Assembly: GCF_023913515.1 (NCBI RefSeq)
Contig: NZ_CP099391.1
Location: 992,001-1,056,000, forward strand
Direction of reading: 5' to 3'
DNA from: Natronococcus sp. CG52
Lineage (GTDB): Archaea; Halobacteriota; Halobacteria; Halobacteriales; Natrialbaceae
Length of the DNA: 64,000 nucleotides
Shown: piece by piece, positions 1 to 35,631 of the stretch
Position numbering within the stretch: position 1 is the first letter of the stretch
Layout: each line of letters opens with the position of its first letter
Position numbers and translations under genes: made by a program
The notes under the pieces: model-generated
What the model saw: only the letters and a program-made list of their open reading frames with translations
The model's database searches: none
Told to the model about the DNA's origin: nothing

Positions 1-705
1 ACCCTCGCACAGAGGCATCGCCGTCGTCCGCAGAGAACCGCACGATAGCGTCCTCGAGTCCGGTCCGGTGAAAGATGTCCTCGTGGCTCCCCGCCCTCGC
101 CTCGGGACCGTCATTCGCTCCATCGACGCGCCCCGCTCGTCGCCCGCGACGACGCTTCCGCGGCGGGAACCGAAGCCGACGACGGCGACGTCTGTCCCGT
201 CCTCGCGGGCGAGCTGGCCCAGGTTCAGCTTGCCGCGTCGACCGTGTCGTCGCGGGAGCGTCGCCGACGTGGGTGCTGTGCGCCCAGACAATTCCCGGGC
301 CGTCGTGGAACTCGAGCAGCCGTTCCAGAGTCTCGCTCGTGTGCCGGTCGCGCACGTTCCCGGACGTCCCCCGTCGCGGGCCATCTCGCGGTAGTAGGAT
401 TCGGCGTTCTCGGCGACGAGGGCGTTCTGGTCCCCCGCGAACGACTCGAGCGGGGAGCGGAGCCGCGAGCCACGACGGCGACGACCCGCTCGATCCGAGG
501 ACGAACGGACTGAGTCCTCGCGCAGCGTCCGGAGCACCTCGAGCGCGACGAACGAGAAGTCGCGATTCGCGAGCAGTCGGGCCGACAGTCGGGCCCGCGG
601 GCGGTAACACTCCGAGGTTCCGTGGGAAGCTTCGCCAAACAGGACGACGTCCGCGTCGGAAACGTCTGCGACGAGGTCGTCGATCCCCGTCGTGACGAAC
701 TGCCG
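1..705 (-). pseudogene. Erythromycin esterase-like pseudogene, multiply frameshifted, open at window edge
   Basis: No single frame is open, but translating the minus strand while switching frame gives a recognisable erythromycin-esterase family protein. It starts near 705 with DDLVADVSDADVVLFGEASH and GTSE, continues as NRDFSFVALEV, then NALVAENAESYYREMAR, then (new frame) ERLLEFHDGPGIVWAHSTH, then (new frame) DGTDVAVVGFGSRRGSVVAG, and finally SHEDIFHRTGLEDAIVRF. GEASHGTSE and WAHSTHVGD are the family's active-site blocks. At least four frame changes are needed over about 700 bases, so this is a decayed gene rather than one sequencing error. The 3' end runs off the left edge. The family hydrolyses esters such as macrolide lactones, but many haloarchaeal members have unknown substrates. 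Confidence 0.85.
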
Positions 706-24793: not shown

Positions 24794-26068
24794 ATGTCTC
24801 GAGAACAGGAGCAAACGGCTCGGCGAACGGTGCTGAAGGGGTATGCTGCGACCGCTGTCGGGATCGGCGCGCTGAGCGGAACCGGCGCGGCGCAGGGAAG
24901 CGGTGACGAGAACCGCAGTCCGCGGCTGGAACTGGTCGGTCACTCTACCCTGGGTGCTCCGGACGGCAACATCACGAACATGGACGTCCGCGAAGATTTA
25001 GGCCTCGCAGCGACGGGATCGTTCGTGTTCGGCGATACCGACGTTCATATCGCCGACGTCTCCGACCTCCAGAACCCGGAACACGTCGCCACCACCTCGG
25101 CCGGCATCGGCTACGTGAACGACGTGTTCTTCCATCCCGAGGAGCCGTGGATCTTCACCGCCAACGAGGGCGGCGGAGACGCGGGCTGGGCCGTCGTAGA
25201 CGTCGACGATCCTGCAGAACCCGAACTGTACGGCCCGTTCACCGTCGACGACGGCGCGGGCGTTCACACCGTCATCGCCTTCGACGAGGAGCACGTCATC
25301 GTCTCGGGGACGGGCCGCGGAATCGTGATCTACGACGTTACCGATCCCGAGAACCCGAGGGAAGTCGGCGAGTTTCAGGCGACGGATCATTCGGTCGAGT
25401 CGTTGTCCCCCGACGATCCGGGCCACACCCATCCCAGCGGATACGTCCACGATACGCAGGTCCGTGGCGACTACGCCTATCTCGCCCACTGGGATCACGG
25501 TCTCTACATCGTCGATCTGAGCGATCCGGCGAATCCCGTCGAAGCCGCTTCGTTCGACTATCAGGAAGAGACGGCGGACGTCCCACTCCGGAACGCCCAC
25601 CACGCGTTCCCGCACCCGGAAGACGACATCTGCCTCGTCGGTGAAGAGGTCGGCTCCGGTAATCCAGGGTACAAACACGTGATCGAGTTCGATCTCGACA
25701 CCGGTAAGACCGAACTCCTCTCATCGTTCCGTCCGCCGCAGGGAAGCGCCCAGCAACCCACCGGTCAGCAGGGGTTCTGGTGGACCGGCCACTTCTCCGA
25801 CTGGGGCGTCGGCGACCAGCAGGACGTCCTGTTCAGCGGCGACTACAAGGCCGGCGTCCAGACGTTCGATCTCTCCGATCCGGCGAACCCGGAGCGGATC
25901 GACCAGTACGTGACCACCGACGGGGCCGACGAGGTCCGCCGAAAGGATCCAGCGAGGGCGATCGACGACATCCCGATGGTCTGGGGTGCCAACACGAAAG
26001 ACAGCGAGTACGTGTACGTCTCGGACGCCAGTACGGGGCTGTTCGTGTTCACGCTCGAGGGGTACTGA
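24794..26068 (+). CDS. Tat-exported LVIVD-repeat beta-propeller protein
   Basis: The 424-residue protein begins with a twin-arginine signal (QTARRTVLKGYAATAVGIGA) ending around residue 35. The rest is built from LVIVD-type repeats, each a short strand ending in D-P-x-N/E-P: HIADVSDLQNPEHV, AVVDVDDPAEPELY, VIYDVTDPENPREV, YIVDLSDPANPVEA and QTFDLSDPANPERI, at intervals of 40-80 residues. Such repeats fold into a beta-propeller, usually outside the cell, with carbohydrate- or protein-binding roles proposed but unproven. His-rich loops (HTHPSGYVHD, NAHHAFPHPEDD) could bind metal. It is monocistronic with its own regulated-looking promoter. Confidence 0.88.
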   Translation: MSREQEQTARRTVLKGYAATAVGIGALSGTGAAQGSGDENRSPRLELVGHSTLGAPDGNITNMDVREDLGLAATGSFVFGDTDVHIADVSDLQNPEHVATTSAGIGYVNDVFFHPEEPWIFTANEGGGDAGWAVVDVDDPAEPELYGPFTVDDGAGVHTVIAFDEEHVIVSGTGRGIVIYDVTDPENPREVGEFQATDHSVESLSPDDPGHTHPSGYVHDTQVRGDYAYLAHWDHGLYIVDLSDPANPVEAASFDYQEETADVPLRNAHHAFPHPEDDICLVGEEVGSGNPGYKHVIEFDLDTGKTELLSSFRPPQGSAQQPTGQQGFWWTGHFSDWGVGDQQDVLFSGDYKAGVQTFDLSDPANPERIDQYVTTDGADEVRRKDPARAIDDIPMVWGANTKDSEYVYVSDASTGLFVFTLEGY

Positions 26069-29066: not shown

Positions 29067-31247
29067 TCAGGTTTCCTCACCGACCACGGCGTTGTCGTCG
29101 GATTCTCCGAACGCGACCCAGCCGTCGTCGGTTTTGGCTGCGTTCGCCTCGGACGGACCGAACGCGTACGTACCAGTCTCCGCCGGCGCCTCCGGGAAGT
29201 AGGTGAACGTGTGCGCCTCGTCCGGAACCGCGGTCCCGAAGTACACGTACTGAACGTCGCCCGCCTCCTCGACGCGCTCGACGTCGCCGTACGCTTCGTC
29301 GACCGACCACCCGTCGGGGACGACGTCTCGAACCGTCGCCTCGTGCGATACCGATTCGACTGTCACGTCGACGCGGTTGGTCTGGCCGGCGGTGAACGCC
29401 GAGCCGTCGTCCTCGCGAGAGCCCGTCACTTCGAGCGCCTCGGGCGTATCGGAATTGACCAGGTCGACTTCGTCGTGCGTCGCGAAGTCGCCGGTCTCAG
29501 CTCGCCGCACGGCCGCCGCGGCATCGACGAAGCCGGCGCCGGCATTCCACGGGGTGGAGGCGGTGTGAACGTCTTCGGCCTCCGCCTCGATCGTATCGAT
29601 GATCTTCACGGGCGTCCAGTCGTGGCCGTTTTTGCGCGCGGCGTCGACCAGCAGCGCGCAGACGCCCGCCGCGGCCGGACAGGCCATGCTCGTCCCCGTC
29701 ATCGGCGTGTAGTAGGGTTCCTCGTCGGGCTCGAGCGCGTCCAGCGGGTCGGTCGGTCCGACGGTGCTCATCACGGAGTTGCCCGGCGTCGCGACGCCGG
29801 GACGGTAGAGGCCGACCGGACGGTACCGGTGGGGCTCGCCCACCTGCTCGAACGCCTCGAGGTCGATCTCGTAGGTGACCGCGACGTTGGTCGCGGGCTC
29901 GACCTCGATCCAGTAGGTTTCGCCGCCCTCGACGTCGGTGGTCAGGGTCGTGTGCTGGTACACCGGTTCCTCGCCGAGTTTGGCGGTCTCTTCGCCATCC
30001 TTCGAGCCGCGGCGGACGATCAGCGTGATCTGCTCGCCGTCGGGGGTCAGCGAGAGGTCGAGTTCGAGGACGTCGGCGTTGTTCGGTGCGCCCCACTCGT
30101 AATAGTCGCTGCCGGTGCCGGTGGGACCGAGCTCGCCCGTCCACTCCTCGACGTCGACGACGTACCGGTCGTCGGTCATCGCGGCGTGGAACTTCTCGAG
30201 ATTGTTCAGCGCCTTCCGGCGGTCGTAGTTGGTTTCGCGGCCCTCCTCGGGCGTTCGTCCGCGAGCGGAGAAGTCCGTAACGTGCTCGTCGTCGCGAGTG
30301 GCCGCCGCGCCGATGACGTGGGGCGCCTTCGCGAACCGCGAGAGCGTATCCGGGTCGGGGCCGTCGTTGCCCGCCGCGAAGACGGGTACGATATCTCGCC
30401 GGAACGCCTCCCAGGAGGCGACGTTGACGGGATCGTTCGGATTGTACCGCATGTCGCGGGCGACGCCGTAAGAGTTCGACACCACGTCGGGGTCGAACTC
30501 GTCGTCGGGATCGTCCGCGCGGGCGAGCACGTGATCCCACGCACCGACGACGAACGGGAGGTAGACGGCCTCATTGGTCGAGTACACCGAAACGCGCGCC
30601 TCGGGTGCCATCCCGCGGTACCGTTCGTCGCTCGCCGACCCGTCGCCGGCGACGATGCCGGCGCAGTGGGTGCCGTGGCCGAGGTCGTCGGTGTCCCCTT
30701 CGGGGCCGAGGTCGATCCACTCCAGATCGCGTTCGCCCAGCGGGGTATCGACCCACTGCCAGTTCGACTCGAGTCGCCCGTCGAAGTCCGGATGCGGACC
30801 CGAGAAGCCCGAGTCGATGACGACCGCGTCGACCGACGACCCGTCGTAGCCGAGATCGGACTGGACCGCGGAGACGCCCGTCGCCTCGCGGGAGTCATCG
30901 TTATAGAACCCGAGTTCGACGGCCTTGCGGACCCGTCGAACGGAGTCCCAGTCGGCGACGCTCGAGAGCTGGTCGCCGGTTAGTGCGGTGTAGGCCATCG
31001 GCAGCACCTCGTACTCGACGAGGCCCTCCCGCAGGTCGAGGTCCGCGAGGCGGCCGACCGATTCGGCGGCGTCGAAGACGACGATCACCTCCTGGACCTC
31101 GTCTGTCGAGGCGTCGAGTTGGTCGTCGAGCACCGACGTGTCGGCCGTGGACGTTCCCGAGAACGGGAGCAGCGACGCCGCGCCGACGGCGCCGGCGGTC
31201 GAGAGTACTGTGCGTCGATCTACGAGTCGCGGCGTATCCTCTGACAT
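29067..31247 (-). CDS. Tat-exported subtilisin-like (S8) protease with internal beta-sandwich insertion, 726 aa
   Basis: N-terminal Tat signal (VDRRTVLSTAGAVGAASLLP), then an inhibitor-I9-like propeptide (about 50-110), then the subtilase domain with Asp145 (AVVIDSGFSG), His191 (GHGTHCAGI), oxyanion Asn294 (FAAGNDGP) and Ser520 (MTGTSMACP). Between Asn294 and Ser520 an extra segment (about 340-470) reads like a PPC-type beta sandwich (YEWGAPNNADVLELDLSL, ITLIVRRGS, GGETYWIEVEP, TYEIDLEAFEQ). Residues about 605-726 form a tail shared with the next subtilase (VERVEEAGDVQYVYFGTA, TYAFGPSEANAA, NAVVGEET). It lies 94 bases downstream of that subtilase on the same strand. Presumed secreted, salt-dependent. 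Confidence 0.92.
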   Translation of the reverse strand: MSEDTPRLVDRRTVLSTAGAVGAASLLPFSGTSTADTSVLDDQLDASTDEVQEVIVVFDAAESVGRLADLDLREGLVEYEVLPMAYTALTGDQLSSVADWDSVRRVRKAVELGFYNDDSREATGVSAVQSDLGYDGSSVDAVVIDSGFSGPHPDFDGRLESNWQWVDTPLGERDLEWIDLGPEGDTDDLGHGTHCAGIVAGDGSASDERYRGMAPEARVSVYSTNEAVYLPFVVGAWDHVLARADDPDDEFDPDVVSNSYGVARDMRYNPNDPVNVASWEAFRRDIVPVFAAGNDGPDPDTLSRFAKAPHVIGAAATRDDEHVTDFSARGRTPEEGRETNYDRRKALNNLEKFHAAMTDDRYVVDVEEWTGELGPTGTGSDYYEWGAPNNADVLELDLSLTPDGEQITLIVRRGSKDGEETAKLGEEPVYQHTTLTTDVEGGETYWIEVEPATNVAVTYEIDLEAFEQVGEPHRYRPVGLYRPGVATPGNSVMSTVGPTDPLDALEPDEEPYYTPMTGTSMACPAAAGVCALLVDAARKNGHDWTPVKIIDTIEAEAEDVHTASTPWNAGAGFVDAAAAVRRAETGDFATHDEVDLVNSDTPEALEVTGSREDDGSAFTAGQTNRVDVTVESVSHEATVRDVVPDGWSVDEAYGDVERVEEAGDVQYVYFGTAVPDEAHTFTYFPEAPAETGTYAFGPSEANAAKTDDGWVAFGESDDNAVVGEET

Positions 31248-31341: not shown

Positions 31342-34146
31342 CTAAGTGCTCCGGCCGACGACGACGTTGGAGCCGCTGGTTCCCGAAATCGCGACCCAGC
31401 CGTCGCCCGCGTTCACCTCGGCCGGGCCGAAGGCGTAGGCGTCGCTCATCAGCAGTTCGTCGGGCGCCTCCGCGAAGTACTCGACCGAGGTTTCGACGTC
31501 GGCGGCGGCCGTTCCGAAGTAGACGTACTGGACGCCCTCGCCTTCCTCGACGCGCTCGACGTCGTCGGAGTACTCGATCAAGACGTCCCACTCGGCCGGG
31601 ACGACGTCCCGAAGCTCGGCGTCCTCGCTCGGGTTCGCGGTCAGTTCGACGTGGTTGGTCTGCCCACCTGTGAAGACGCTGGCGTCGTCCTCGCGGGTGC
31701 CGTCGACGAAGAAGCCGTCCTCGACGTCGACCGAACAGTCGAGGTGTACCTGAACGTCGTCACCGTTGACGCAGCCAGGCACGTTCACCAGCTTCGCGAC
31801 GACAAACGCCGTCCGATCGTCGCTGTCACGGCCGAACGAGACGGACGCTTCGGCGGTTCCGTCGAGCCCCTGCGTCCGTCCGAGCACGTTCGGTTCGCCG
31901 TTGTCGGCGGGGTTCTCGGCGTCGTAGACGAACAGATCGACGTGAGGATCGCCTTTGGCCGCCCCCTTATCGCCGCCCGAGAGGTGGCTGACCTCGACGC
32001 TGGCGGCGACCGTTCCCGGACCCGCCTGCACGTAGCCCGCCGCGGCGCGCTCGTCTTCGGGGACGTTCAGGCCGACGGCCTCGCTCGAGGTGCCCGACAG
32101 TTCCCGCGTCACCGCGTCGATCGCCGTGCCCGGGTTCACTCGGCCGAAGCCTTCGTAGGGGTCGCGGCCGCCGAAGTCGTAGCTGGGCGTTTTCGCACGG
32201 TGGTGCGGTGCTGCGGTGAGCGCCGTCTCCGTCGCCGTGGCGAGCAACACCTGTTTGAGGCGCACCACGTCGTCGAACGCAGTCTCTGCGGGCTCGGGGA
32301 GCGCGATGCTCGACGGAGCGTCCTCTTCCATCGCTTGTGCGACGAGGCCGGCGGTGCCGCAGGCGTACGGCGAGGCCATCGAGGTGCCGGCCTTGCCGGT
32401 GTAGCCCCGGATCGGGGGCTGCTCGTCCTCGGGTTCGTCCGCGACGCCCGTGTCCGCGGCGTTCGCGAGGTCCGTAATGTACCCGCCCGGCGCGGTGACG
32501 TCGGGCTTCATGTACGTGTCGTAGTCCTCCTCGTCGATCCCGCCGATGCCGCCGCTGGAGTAGCCGGAGATGCCGTCGAGCGGGCCCGTCGCAACAACCG
32601 AAATCGCTTCGTCGGCCACGGCCGGCGAGCCGTTCCCGTTCGCCGGCGTCGCGGCGTTGCCCGCCGCCGCGACCGTCAGCACGCCCGCGTCGGCGATCTC
32701 CTTGATGCGGGCGGGGATGCGATCGAGCGTGCCTGCGGCCGCGCCGAGCGGGAGGCCGCCGACGTAGCCCCACGACATGTTGACGGCGCGCATGTTGAAC
32801 AGGTCGGCGAACTCCTCGGCGTGCCGGCCCAGGTCCTCGGTCGGCCCTGAGAGTCCCTGAAGGCAGACGAGACTCTCGTTAGGCGCGATACCCGAGTGGA
32901 AGCCGTCGGCCTCGCCGGTGCGGTCGGCCGCGGTCGCGTCGGGGTCGCGGAACGCCCCGACGGCGACCGAGTCGACGTACGCGGACGTCGCCAGTTCGCC
33001 CTCGGCCGTCCGGACGTAGACCGTGTAAGTGCCGGATCGTTCGGTCGGAGCCACCGCGGTCACGTTGTCCTGGACGCCCTCGTCGGTGTCGAGCGTGGTG
33101 CGCTCGAGCGTGCGCCCGTCGGGGCCCTCGACGACGACCTCGAGGAGTTCGCCGAAGGCGGAGCCGAAGACGCCCGTGCCGGCGTCGGCCTCGACCTCGT
33201 AGGCGAGGTAGTTGCCGGTCACCGCCGAGAGCGCGGTACGAGGTTCGTCCGTCCGGACTGTATCCGGGTCGAGGGCGCTCGCCCGGCCGCTCCCGCCCAT
33301 GATGGACGCGCAGTGGGTCCCGTGACCGTTCTCGTCGCGAGGCCGGTCGTAGAAGCCGTAGCGGGACCCGGCGTCGTACCAGCCGACCGTCTTGGGCGTG
33401 TCGGCCGTCGGGGTGCCGTCGGCCCCCTCGAAGACGACGCTCGCGTCGTAGGTCGTCCGCTCGCCCTCGTACGCGAAGTAGGTCCCCGAGATTTCGTACT
33501 CGCAAGTCGTGTTGATGTACGCCTCGATGACGAACCGGTACCGCCGGTCGGGCGCGACCGATGCCCGAATCGTTTCGGGCATATCCGCCGAGGCTGCTCG
33601 GGCAGCGGTCTCCCACTGACCGTCGACGTACTCGTCCAGTCGGAGTTCGAGGTCGTTAGTGTTATCCACGTACGGCGACCACGAGAGCGAGGCGTCCAGT
33701 TCCTCCGCGTCGCTCGGCGTCGTGAACTCGTGGTACTTCTCATCGCCGGTGGCGAACGTCCCCGGCCCCATCGTGCTGGAGACGGACTTGGTATCGCCGG
33801 TTTCGACGCGCTCGAGGTCATTCTCGTCGGGCTTGGTGAGTTTTACCCGGTCGTCCTCGACGAACGCCCGTACTCCGTTCCACGGTCCGAGATCCGGGTG
33901 GCGGGAGTCCAGCCCCGAATCGGTCAGCGCGATCGTTCGATCGGATCTGCCGCGATACCCCCGGTCCCAGGCGTGGCGCGCCTCGAGCGCCCGCCAATTG
34001 AGGTATCGTCGGTCGACGTCGTCGGCTGCCACGGCGGTGTTCGCTCCGCCGAACAGGCCAGCTCCGAGGGCGACCCCGGTCGCTTTGACGAACGTTCGAC
34101 GCGAGAAGCCGGTTCTTCCCTTCTGACTCCTATTATTCTCTGTCAT
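31342..34146 (-). CDS. Tat-exported subtilisin-like (S8) protease with two insertions in the catalytic domain, 934 aa
   Basis: Tat signal FSRRTFVKATGVALGAGLFG. The triad is Asp76 (TIALTDSGLDSRHPD), His275 (ENGHGTHCAS) and Ser589 (KAGTSMASPYA), with oxyanion Asn497 (AAAGNAAT). Asp and His are 199 residues apart instead of the usual 30-50: a PPC-like beta sandwich (about 125-228, ELDASLSWSPYVDNTNDLEL, YRFVIEAYINTTCEYEIS) is inserted there. A second beta insertion (about 303-398, YLAYEVEADAGTGVFGS, GTYTVYVRTAEGE) follows the His. There is no I9 propeptide. Residues about 690-805 are another beta domain, and 811-931 match the C-terminal module of the downstream subtilase. Likely secreted. Confidence 0.92.
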   Translation of the reverse strand: MTENNRSQKGRTGFSRRTFVKATGVALGAGLFGGANTAVAADDVDRRYLNWRALEARHAWDRGYRGRSDRTIALTDSGLDSRHPDLGPWNGVRAFVEDDRVKLTKPDENDLERVETGDTKSVSSTMGPGTFATGDEKYHEFTTPSDAEELDASLSWSPYVDNTNDLELRLDEYVDGQWETAARAASADMPETIRASVAPDRRYRFVIEAYINTTCEYEISGTYFAYEGERTTYDASVVFEGADGTPTADTPKTVGWYDAGSRYGFYDRPRDENGHGTHCASIMGGSGRASALDPDTVRTDEPRTALSAVTGNYLAYEVEADAGTGVFGSAFGELLEVVVEGPDGRTLERTTLDTDEGVQDNVTAVAPTERSGTYTVYVRTAEGELATSAYVDSVAVGAFRDPDATAADRTGEADGFHSGIAPNESLVCLQGLSGPTEDLGRHAEEFADLFNMRAVNMSWGYVGGLPLGAAAGTLDRIPARIKEIADAGVLTVAAAGNAATPANGNGSPAVADEAISVVATGPLDGISGYSSGGIGGIDEEDYDTYMKPDVTAPGGYITDLANAADTGVADEPEDEQPPIRGYTGKAGTSMASPYACGTAGLVAQAMEEDAPSSIALPEPAETAFDDVVRLKQVLLATATETALTAAPHHRAKTPSYDFGGRDPYEGFGRVNPGTAIDAVTRELSGTSSEAVGLNVPEDERAAAGYVQAGPGTVAASVEVSHLSGGDKGAAKGDPHVDLFVYDAENPADNGEPNVLGRTQGLDGTAEASVSFGRDSDDRTAFVVAKLVNVPGCVNGDDVQVHLDCSVDVEDGFFVDGTREDDASVFTGGQTNHVELTANPSEDAELRDVVPAEWDVLIEYSDDVERVEEGEGVQYVYFGTAAADVETSVEYFAEAPDELLMSDAYAFGPAEVNAGDGWVAISGTSGSNVVVGRST

Positions 34147-34881: not shown

Positions 34882-35631
34882 TTACTTTTCGTGACGAGCC
34901 GTTACTGATATCGCTCCCGCTTCTGCACGCCGGTGACAGCTCCAACAGAGCGTAACAACGTTGTCAATCGTGTGCGCGTCTTCGACCCGATCGAACGACC
35001 GAACCGGCCGAATATGGTGGACGTCTGGGTTCCGATCGAGTTCCTCGGCGTCCGTTCCGCAATGCCGGCACTCGTACCCGTCTCGCTCGAGCGCTCGCCG
35101 CCGGATCCGCCACCATCGTTGACCGTATTCGATCGGTCCGCCTTCCCACTGATGGTGGTCCAGACCGACGACGTTCTCGGAGAGCCATTCGCCGTAGCAC
35201 TCGAGCGTGCAGAACACGCCGCGCTTTCGCTTCTCGATGCGAGCGGGACGAACCTCGAGGTCGGTACCGCACGATCGACACGCAACCGTGAGCCGCTCTC
35301 CCGTCTCAGCGGGGTTCTCCGGAAGCAAGCCGTCTGCCGCCGTAACGCACTCCGAACAGTAGGTACCCTGTTTGTTGGACGGGTAAAACGAGAAGGTCGT
35401 TCCACAGGATTCGCACGACGCGACTTCGATCGCATCCTTCCAGTTCCCGTTGTGTTCTCCCGCGTTCGGGTTACAGTTCTCGCAGAACGATCGGCGAGCC
35501 TTCGGATCGTAGAAGTCGGTCTGGCAACCGCTGCAGGTCCGGTTCGGGAGCGGCGCTCCGTGAACCTTTGTGTGGTGTTGTCGCATTCCCTGCTTAGTTC
35601 GGAGCGATTTGTCGCACGTGGGGCAGTCCAT
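34882..35631 (-). CDS. HNH endonuclease with N-terminal zinc fingers
   Basis: The 249-residue protein is a string of zinc modules ending in an HNH nuclease: a C2H2 finger (CPTCDKSLRTKQGMRQHHTK), three Cys4 ribbons (CSGCQTDFYDPKARRSFCEN, CESCGTTFSFYPSNKQGTYC, CRSCGTDLEVRP...CTLEC), then RRALERDGYECRHCGTDAEE and DVHHIRPVRSF...LCWSCH. HH, the later Asn (IDNVVTL) and CH are the HNH metal and catalytic residues, braced by two CxxC pairs. It is 35 bases from tRNA-Gln on the same strand. Such stand-alone HNH proteins are common in haloarchaea; target and role (mobile, repair or defence) unknown. Confidence 0.85.
   Translation of the reverse strand: MDCPTCDKSLRTKQGMRQHHTKVHGAPLPNRTCSGCQTDFYDPKARRSFCENCNPNAGEHNGNWKDAIEVASCESCGTTFSFYPSNKQGTYCSECVTAADGLLPENPAETGERLTVACRSCGTDLEVRPARIEKRKRGVFCTLECYGEWLSENVVGLDHHQWEGGPIEYGQRWWRIRRRALERDGYECRHCGTDAEELDRNPDVHHIRPVRSFDRVEDAHTIDNVVTLCWSCHRRAEAGAISVTARHEK

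Follow-up and report, generated by a model that had tools for sequence, protein, structure and literature searches.

A haloarchaeal subtilase with two predicted beta-sandwich domains nested in its catalytic domain and no propeptide

Accessory domains nested within the catalytic domain of subtilases are already known. Pyrolysin and tripeptidyl peptidase II (TPP II) carry a large insert between the catalytic Asp and His, and Gao et al. 2017 are said to have found that the four catalytic-domain inserts of pyrolysin raise stability and activity. In the PA-domain subtilases (P57, C5a peptidase, tomato SBT3 and AcpII) the nested accessory domain lies between His and Ser; the available portion of PMC5177683 describes such domains as acting in substrate binding or access, and that of P57 as binding collagen. 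Here we describe P0001, a gene in a 64,000-nucleotide stretch (hereafter the window) of Natronococcus sp. CG52 (contig NZ_CP099391.1, positions 992,001 to 1,056,000), whose genome comprises 4.74 Mb on three contigs. Its product, a subtilase of family S8, resembles pyrolysin and TPP II in its long Asp-His insert and the PA-domain enzymes in having accessory domains within the catalytic domain. It is unusual in detail: unlike pyrolysin and TPP II it also bears an insert, its second, within the calcium-A segment, and unlike the PA-domain subtilases it is not interrupted by a domain of that family, with no Pfam PA match in P0001 or its neighbour P0002 at E 10. We give about even credence to the reading that P0001 is a secreted, Tk-SP-like subtilase that bears two accessory sandwiches on tolerant loops and folds independently of a prodomain.

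In a profile search P0001 matched PF00082 at 102.3 bits, against a cut-off of 21.8. Residues D76, H275, N497 and S589 align with their counterparts in known subtilases, and the D76, H275, S589 triad and oxyanion N497 are kept in 41/41 relatives with a complete D-H region; the truncated 42nd row (L045, in our numbering of loci) was left out of the triad counts, the insert-1 counts and the core-column tree. R16 and R17 of the twin-arginine translocation (Tat) signal are present in at least 90% of the 42 aligned rows. A frame artefact was rejected, as the G+C content by codon position is coding-like throughout and full-length orthologues exist. The AlphaFold2 model, built with 42 sequences, has a mean predicted local distance difference test score (pLDDT) of 83.8 and a predicted template modelling score (pTM) of 0.85. 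Once the inserts are looped out, the core matches Savinase at Z 30.2 and 2.2 Å over 258/269 residues (model 48..677) and on subtilisin BPN' (1lw6) at 2.4 Å over 268 residues; for the subtilisins overall the values are Z ~30 and 2.2-2.5 Å over 257-268 residues, demonstrating that the modelled core has the subtilisin fold. These superpositions are dominated by the subtilisin core and are by themselves silent on the folds of the inserts. The best solved match of the core is Tk-SP (PDB 3afg, 9ues; Z 32.8, 2.8 Å, 292 residues), which, unlike P0001, has a propeptide. Their alignment falls into three blocks, with gaps at P0001 86/252 and 290/414 where Tk-SP is practically gapless, indicating that the inserts are clean additions at two points. 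On the basis of its signal, triad and fold, P0001 is probably a secreted, active subtilase of the Tk-SP-like type, and in the model its C-terminal domain J probably corresponds to the beta-jelly roll of Tk-SP.

An earlier note on this DNA had described P0001 as a subtilase whose catalytic domain is interrupted twice, and the triad, the gaps in the Tk-SP alignment and the folded inserts of the model confirm it. The structure prediction and the alignment to classical subtilases that the note called for yield two folded beta-sandwiches, both placed in loops of the core. Insert 1 has eight strands and 10-residue block pLDDT values of 72-92 over residues 111-230, its sandwich being judged from strand content and confidence inside the full-length model; insert 2 has eight short strands and block values of 62-96 over residues 301-400. 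Disordered inserts, which the note had named as a way to be wrong, were thereby rejected. So was a misassigned catalytic Asp: both regular-expression candidates, at 132 and 249, belong to insert 1, and the superposition of subtilisin starts at 46-48. The D76-H275 spacing of 199 positions, a long insert of the pyrolysin/TPP II type, stands as first noticed and compares with 35-53 for another 33 genes of the Tat-type S8 class, drawn from six haloarchaeal genomes. This survey found 43 genes, of which 35 were usable; four at locus edges and four without both motifs were dropped, and the P0001-type gene of L138 is outside the 35. The second insertion, given as ~95 residues after the His, is present and beta-rich, and its length was corrected to ~125 residues.

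Insert 2 was found in 41/41 relatives. Its profile is loosely immunoglobulin-, PPC- or CBM-like, with matches to PPC (5/27), CBM_6 (11/27) and MG2 (12/27) that are all weak. The site corresponds to the short stretch from the His helix to the GxAP motif in other S8 genes of the host genome, 18-22 residues where measured; in P0001 this distance is 143-144, and the calcium-A loop segment is thus interrupted. Among the surveyed genes, the two of the P0001 type have His-GxAP distances above 90, versus 17-35 in the other 33, and twin-Arg-to-catalytic-Asp distances of 60 and 67, versus 111-290. In the superposition, residues 1-3 of mature subtilisin coincide with model residues 46-48. These immediately follow the Tat signal and leave no room for a propeptide; P0001 has none before its catalytic domain, unlike classical prosubtilisin. 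The other haloarchaeal S8 genes measured likewise differ from P0001, having an N-terminus of prepropeptide length and short Asp-His and His-GxAP spacings. Halolysins such as SptA and HlyR4 are, like P0001, haloarchaeal extracellular S8 proteases, and SptA is described with a C-terminal extension in the accessible parts of PMC3158780, PMC6085418 and PMC12893001.

In classical subtilisins, BPN' residues 75-83 form the segment with calcium site A. As described in the available part of PMC4865297, BPN' without these residues folds much faster, Sbt-70 folds without the prodomain, and the deletion combined with stabilising mutations retains native-like activity. P0001 resembles the engineered protein in that the calcium-A loop is gone, and differs from it in having a ~125-residue domain there instead. 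Given this behaviour of BPN' and Sbt-70, a lineage with neither loop nor propeptide makes sense, and the replacement of the loop by insert 2 together with the absent propeptide suggests prodomain-independent folding. Insert 2 would then be a structural substitute for the calcium-A loop, and P0001 would fold without a prodomain because the slow-folding loop is gone. That the calcium-A loop and the propeptide are lost together is new. The share of this loop in the prodomain requirement of subtilisin has been studied by engineered deletions, to which the P0001 family would be a natural counterpart, adjoined by a propeptide-bearing relative with a loop of normal length.

Several points weigh against this account. 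In P0002 relatives and Tk-SP the segment is of calcium-loop length and non-classical (His-GMAP 21), which may mean that loss of the classical calcium-A site preceded the gain of insert 2. Insert 2 and the absent propeptide are both fixed, and their link therefore rests on one lineage. For pernisine and Tk-subtilisin, calcium binding is what allows folding in the absence of the propeptide, as reported in the available part of PMC10580911, and insert 2, which is acid-rich, may hold calcium ligands of its own. In distant pairs, moreover, the inserts outpace the core, with omega (the ratio of nonsynonymous to synonymous substitution rates) at 0.64-0.69 versus L020, where synonymous divergence (dS) is high.

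The main rival to prodomain-independent folding comes from the neighbouring protease, P0002. Its model (mean pLDDT 74.3) has a beta-alpha-beta-beta-alpha-beta element at 52-108 and superposes with ProN-Tk-SP at Z 36.0 (371 residues, starting at model residue 28) and with pro-Tk-subtilisin at Z 33.5 (348 residues, starting at model residue 48). P0002 thus has an I9-like propeptide where P0001 has none, and this propeptide could act in trans on P0001 as a folding chaperone or inhibitor, the two genes forming a maturation pair. Consistent with such a pair, a P0002-like gene is nearby in 16/26 neighbourhoods (25 loci and the window), adjoining in two Haladaptatus halobius plasmids, and the 93-94-nucleotide spacing between P0001 and P0002 is retained in the window genome and three close genomes. 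None is nearby, however, in 10/26 neighbourhoods, though action from elsewhere is possible, and the cores are distant, that of P0002 matching P0001 weakly; we regard a trans-acting propeptide as unlikely. The adjoining of paralogous subtilases with a common C-terminal domain also recalls the CspC-CspA heterodimer of Clostridioides (9pr8), chain 9pr8_A of which is the rank 3 Foldseek match of the P0002 model. That P0001 is by analogy a non-catalytic heteromer partner of P0002 is nevertheless the least probable of the explanations considered, as its triad and oxyanion Asn are intact in all 41 relatives, unlike those of a pseudoprotease. One P0002 orthologue, in a 96%-identical cluster, is split into two overlapping frames of 399 and 562 residues (L067:4009-6188) and is therefore either broken or mis-sequenced; intact copies exist elsewhere.

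Insert 1 differs from insert 2 in its distribution. Asp-His spacing among the 41 relatives is 190-230 in 27, 65-77 in 13 and 364 in L047, and insert 1 is missing in the 13. The architecture that the earlier note proposed to look for in other genomes is therefore present there for insert 2 throughout, and for insert 1 in part. L047 gives two tandem domain-profile matches (24.8 and 11.3 bits), so insert 1 is apparently doubled; this double-length insert was left out of the insert-1 profile. On the core-column tree, the presence of insert 1 switches at least four times, with all four switches forced by well-supported branches. The host-genome paralogue (L009:2845-5667) is without insert 1, and its sister in another genome (L040) has it. 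In the H. halobius plasmid genes (L107, L108) the Asp block directly joins the His block. L056 is cleanly without insert 1 with its triad whole, at 68% identity overall and 70% over the aligned core and C-terminus.

The domain itself recurs outside P0001. In a profile-profile comparison, insert 1 and the insert of P0002 are homologous (hhalign 99.1%, 1.3e-18, 112 columns), while insert 1 versus J, CT, CT2, core, propeptide and insert 2 scored below 1% in each case; inserts 1 and 2 as copies of one another (0.7%) are thus unsupported. The P0002 insert, modelled with eight strands at 363-467, is present in 9/19 aligned P0002-type proteins and absent in 10/19. Insert-1-type domains also occur in M14 zinc carboxypeptidases, partly of the same clusters, where they stand outside the catalytic domain. 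In the domain tree, which kept 41 of 57 profile matches after partial or duplicate copies were dropped, P0001-type, P0002-type and M14 copies are largely separate (3 changes versus a minimum of 2), the placement of long rows being unsure. The earlier note had called the inserts PPC-like, a type normally C-terminal, and for insert 1 this is supported by sub-threshold scores. Insert 1 of P0001 itself gave no PF04151 (PPC) match; 3/36 insert-1-type copies match PPC weakly, below the cut-off (best E 0.0083), and one M14-borne copy reaches 21.1 bits versus a cut-off of 25.9. From this near-cut-off score and the homology of the copies, insert 1 is best read as a movable PPC-type module, below the formal threshold, in a family that borders on PPC. 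PPC is usually C-terminal; of the insert-1 domains, those of P0001 and P0002 are nested, and M14 proteins alone carry theirs outside the catalytic part. PDB sequences matched the insert profiles no more than weakly, through titin/fn3-type, antifreeze-protein, filamin and S-layer entries. TPP II (3lxu) is a whole-chain Foldseek match of P0001 at rank 41; no TPP II chain was found among PDB chains with the insert-1 profile at E ≤1.

Insert 1 presumably enters just after the HPDL motif, about BPN' 42/43, and we take Asp41 to be a calcium-A ligand, so that both inserts would leave the core at one site. Small insertions at the insert-1 point are seen in other subtilisins (PMC9549277, in its available part). 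Both inserts would be independently folded beta-sandwich accessory domains outside the catalytic machinery, situated where the core tolerates insertion. The insert-1 domain would have entered the two proteases on separate occasions, at the Asp-His loop in P0001 and at the Asn-Ser loop in P0002. The earlier note had suggested that domains nested near the active site could control substrate access or sense the surroundings, which here might mean salt or a ligand. Access to the active site is reportedly restricted by nested PA domains in AcpII and in ScpA, a C5a peptidase (PMC5177683), and along the P0001 sequence ~20 residues separate insert 1 from the catalytic Asp and ~25 from the His. Its loss from triad-keeping orthologues such as L056 runs counter to this suggestion, the dispensability of insert 1 arguing against a catalytic role. 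Insert 2 stands apart from the catalytic machinery, in the segment of the calcium-A loop. Its place is equivalent to BPN' 75-83, which can be deleted with native-like activity once stabilising mutations are added (PMC4865297). Gating or sensing is left unsupported for both inserts and we consider it improbable.

Repeated gain or loss of insert 1 would also be expected of neutral, domain-sized loop decorations without function. To this explanation we give little credence: five orthologues were compared, and in the three closest of them insert 1 has an omega of 0.11-0.22, indicating purifying selection and arguing against neutrality; a recognisable common domain also persists across 36 insert copies, kept in two loops and two enzyme families. 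Nested PA domains offer an analogy by which insert 1, as an accessory domain, would likely bind a polymeric substrate or surface. As a tentative history, the lineage may have swapped the calcium-A barrier for a sandwich and dropped its chaperone, with a PPC-type cassette hopping into, leaving and duplicating within the loops of neighbouring proteases. Also new is the occurrence of one PPC-type module, repeatedly lost, in loops that differ between neighbouring proteases; it demonstrates that nesting extends to domains generally regarded as C-terminal add-ons. The series of none, one and apparently two copies, in two loops, offers ready comparisons for the effects of nested domains on a protease and is of use for domain-insertion engineering. 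A paralogous branch (L009:2845-5667, L022-L032, L040) has a third insertion of ~75 residues just before the catalytic Ser loop, and L022 and L040 carry all three insertions.

Strong relatives of P0001 (E <1e-100) occur in 18/125 genomes of the family. At E 1e-30 relatives were found in 36/391 genomes of the class, and at E 1e-15 in 7/392 genomes drawn from the phylum, all of the same order; there is overlap between the three draws. A pattern scan of 84,980 species, which detects close relatives only, returned four loci, all haloarchaeal, and a plasmid search returned four haloarchaeal records. Outside the haloarchaea no P0001 relatives were found, bacteria being covered by the close-relative pattern scan and not by a profile search. 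No NCBIfam model covers the family, although 2/42 members weakly match the mycosin model (E ≤1e-5), and neither a description of this haloarchaeal nested-insert architecture nor biochemical work on the family was found in the open-access literature.

Table 1. Features of P0001 and P0002, with positions in the window.
Feature	Positions	Strand	Details
Gene P0001	31342..34146	-	Tat-type S8 subtilase without propeptide, 934 residues
Tat signal	34024..34146	-	Residues 1-41, SRRTF at 15-19; low-confidence/disordered in model
Core segment 1	33859..34011	-	Residues 46-96; D76 codon 33919-33921
Insert 1	33397..33858	-	Residues 97-250; 8-stranded PPC-like beta-sandwich (predicted), strands 110-229
Core segment 2	33283..33396	-	Residues 251-288; H275 codon 33322-33324
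Insert 2	32908..33282	-	Residues 289-413; beta-sandwich (predicted), strands 298-399; calcium-A loop-equivalent segment
Core segment 3	32104..32907	-	Residues 414-681; N497 32656-32658, S589 32380-32382
C-terminal beta domain J	31738..32091	-	Residues 686-803; from model; alignment to 3afg_B reaches model residue 809
C-terminal domain CT	31345..31737	-	Residues 804-934; homologous to the C-termini of P0002 and, in relatives, of neighbouring M14 and LVIVD proteins
Gene P0002	29067..31247	-	726-residue Tat-type S8 subtilase; co-directional, 94 nucleotides downstream of P0001
P0002 propeptide	30894..31109	-	Residues ~47-118; beta-alpha-beta-beta-alpha-beta; from model and superposition
P0002 insert	29847..30170	-	Residues ~360-467; between oxyanion Asn and catalytic Ser; insert-1 homologue
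P0002 C-terminal domain CT2	29070..29462	-	CT homologue

A C-terminal domain of ~130 residues (RxDDxSVFTGGQTN...) is common to the clustered subtilases, M14 carboxypeptidases and LVIVD proteins; no Pfam family matched it in P0001 or P0002, and it may serve as a tag for the surface or for export. Related clusters also hold an M14 carboxypeptidase and an LVIVD-repeat protein with this same domain. The gene order is S8-S8-M14 in one H. halobius plasmid, S8-S8 in the other, and M14-S8 in Halocatena marina. Judging from gene content, such a cluster looks like a set for extracellular protein degradation with endo- and exopeptidases. The S8-S8 pair of H. halobius is present on both plasmids (L107, L108), with a P0001-like gene without insert 1 in each. 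LVIVD proteins with the shared C-terminal domain adjoin the subtilase pair in L072 and L074. In the window, a 424-residue Tat-type, LVIVD-repeat-like protein is encoded at 24794-26068, 3 kb from P0002 on the opposite strand. Upstream of P0001, a minus-strand open reading frame at 34882-35631 has CxxC motifs and an HHIRPV...CxxCH segment; we take its product to be zinc-finger-like and HNH-nuclease-like.

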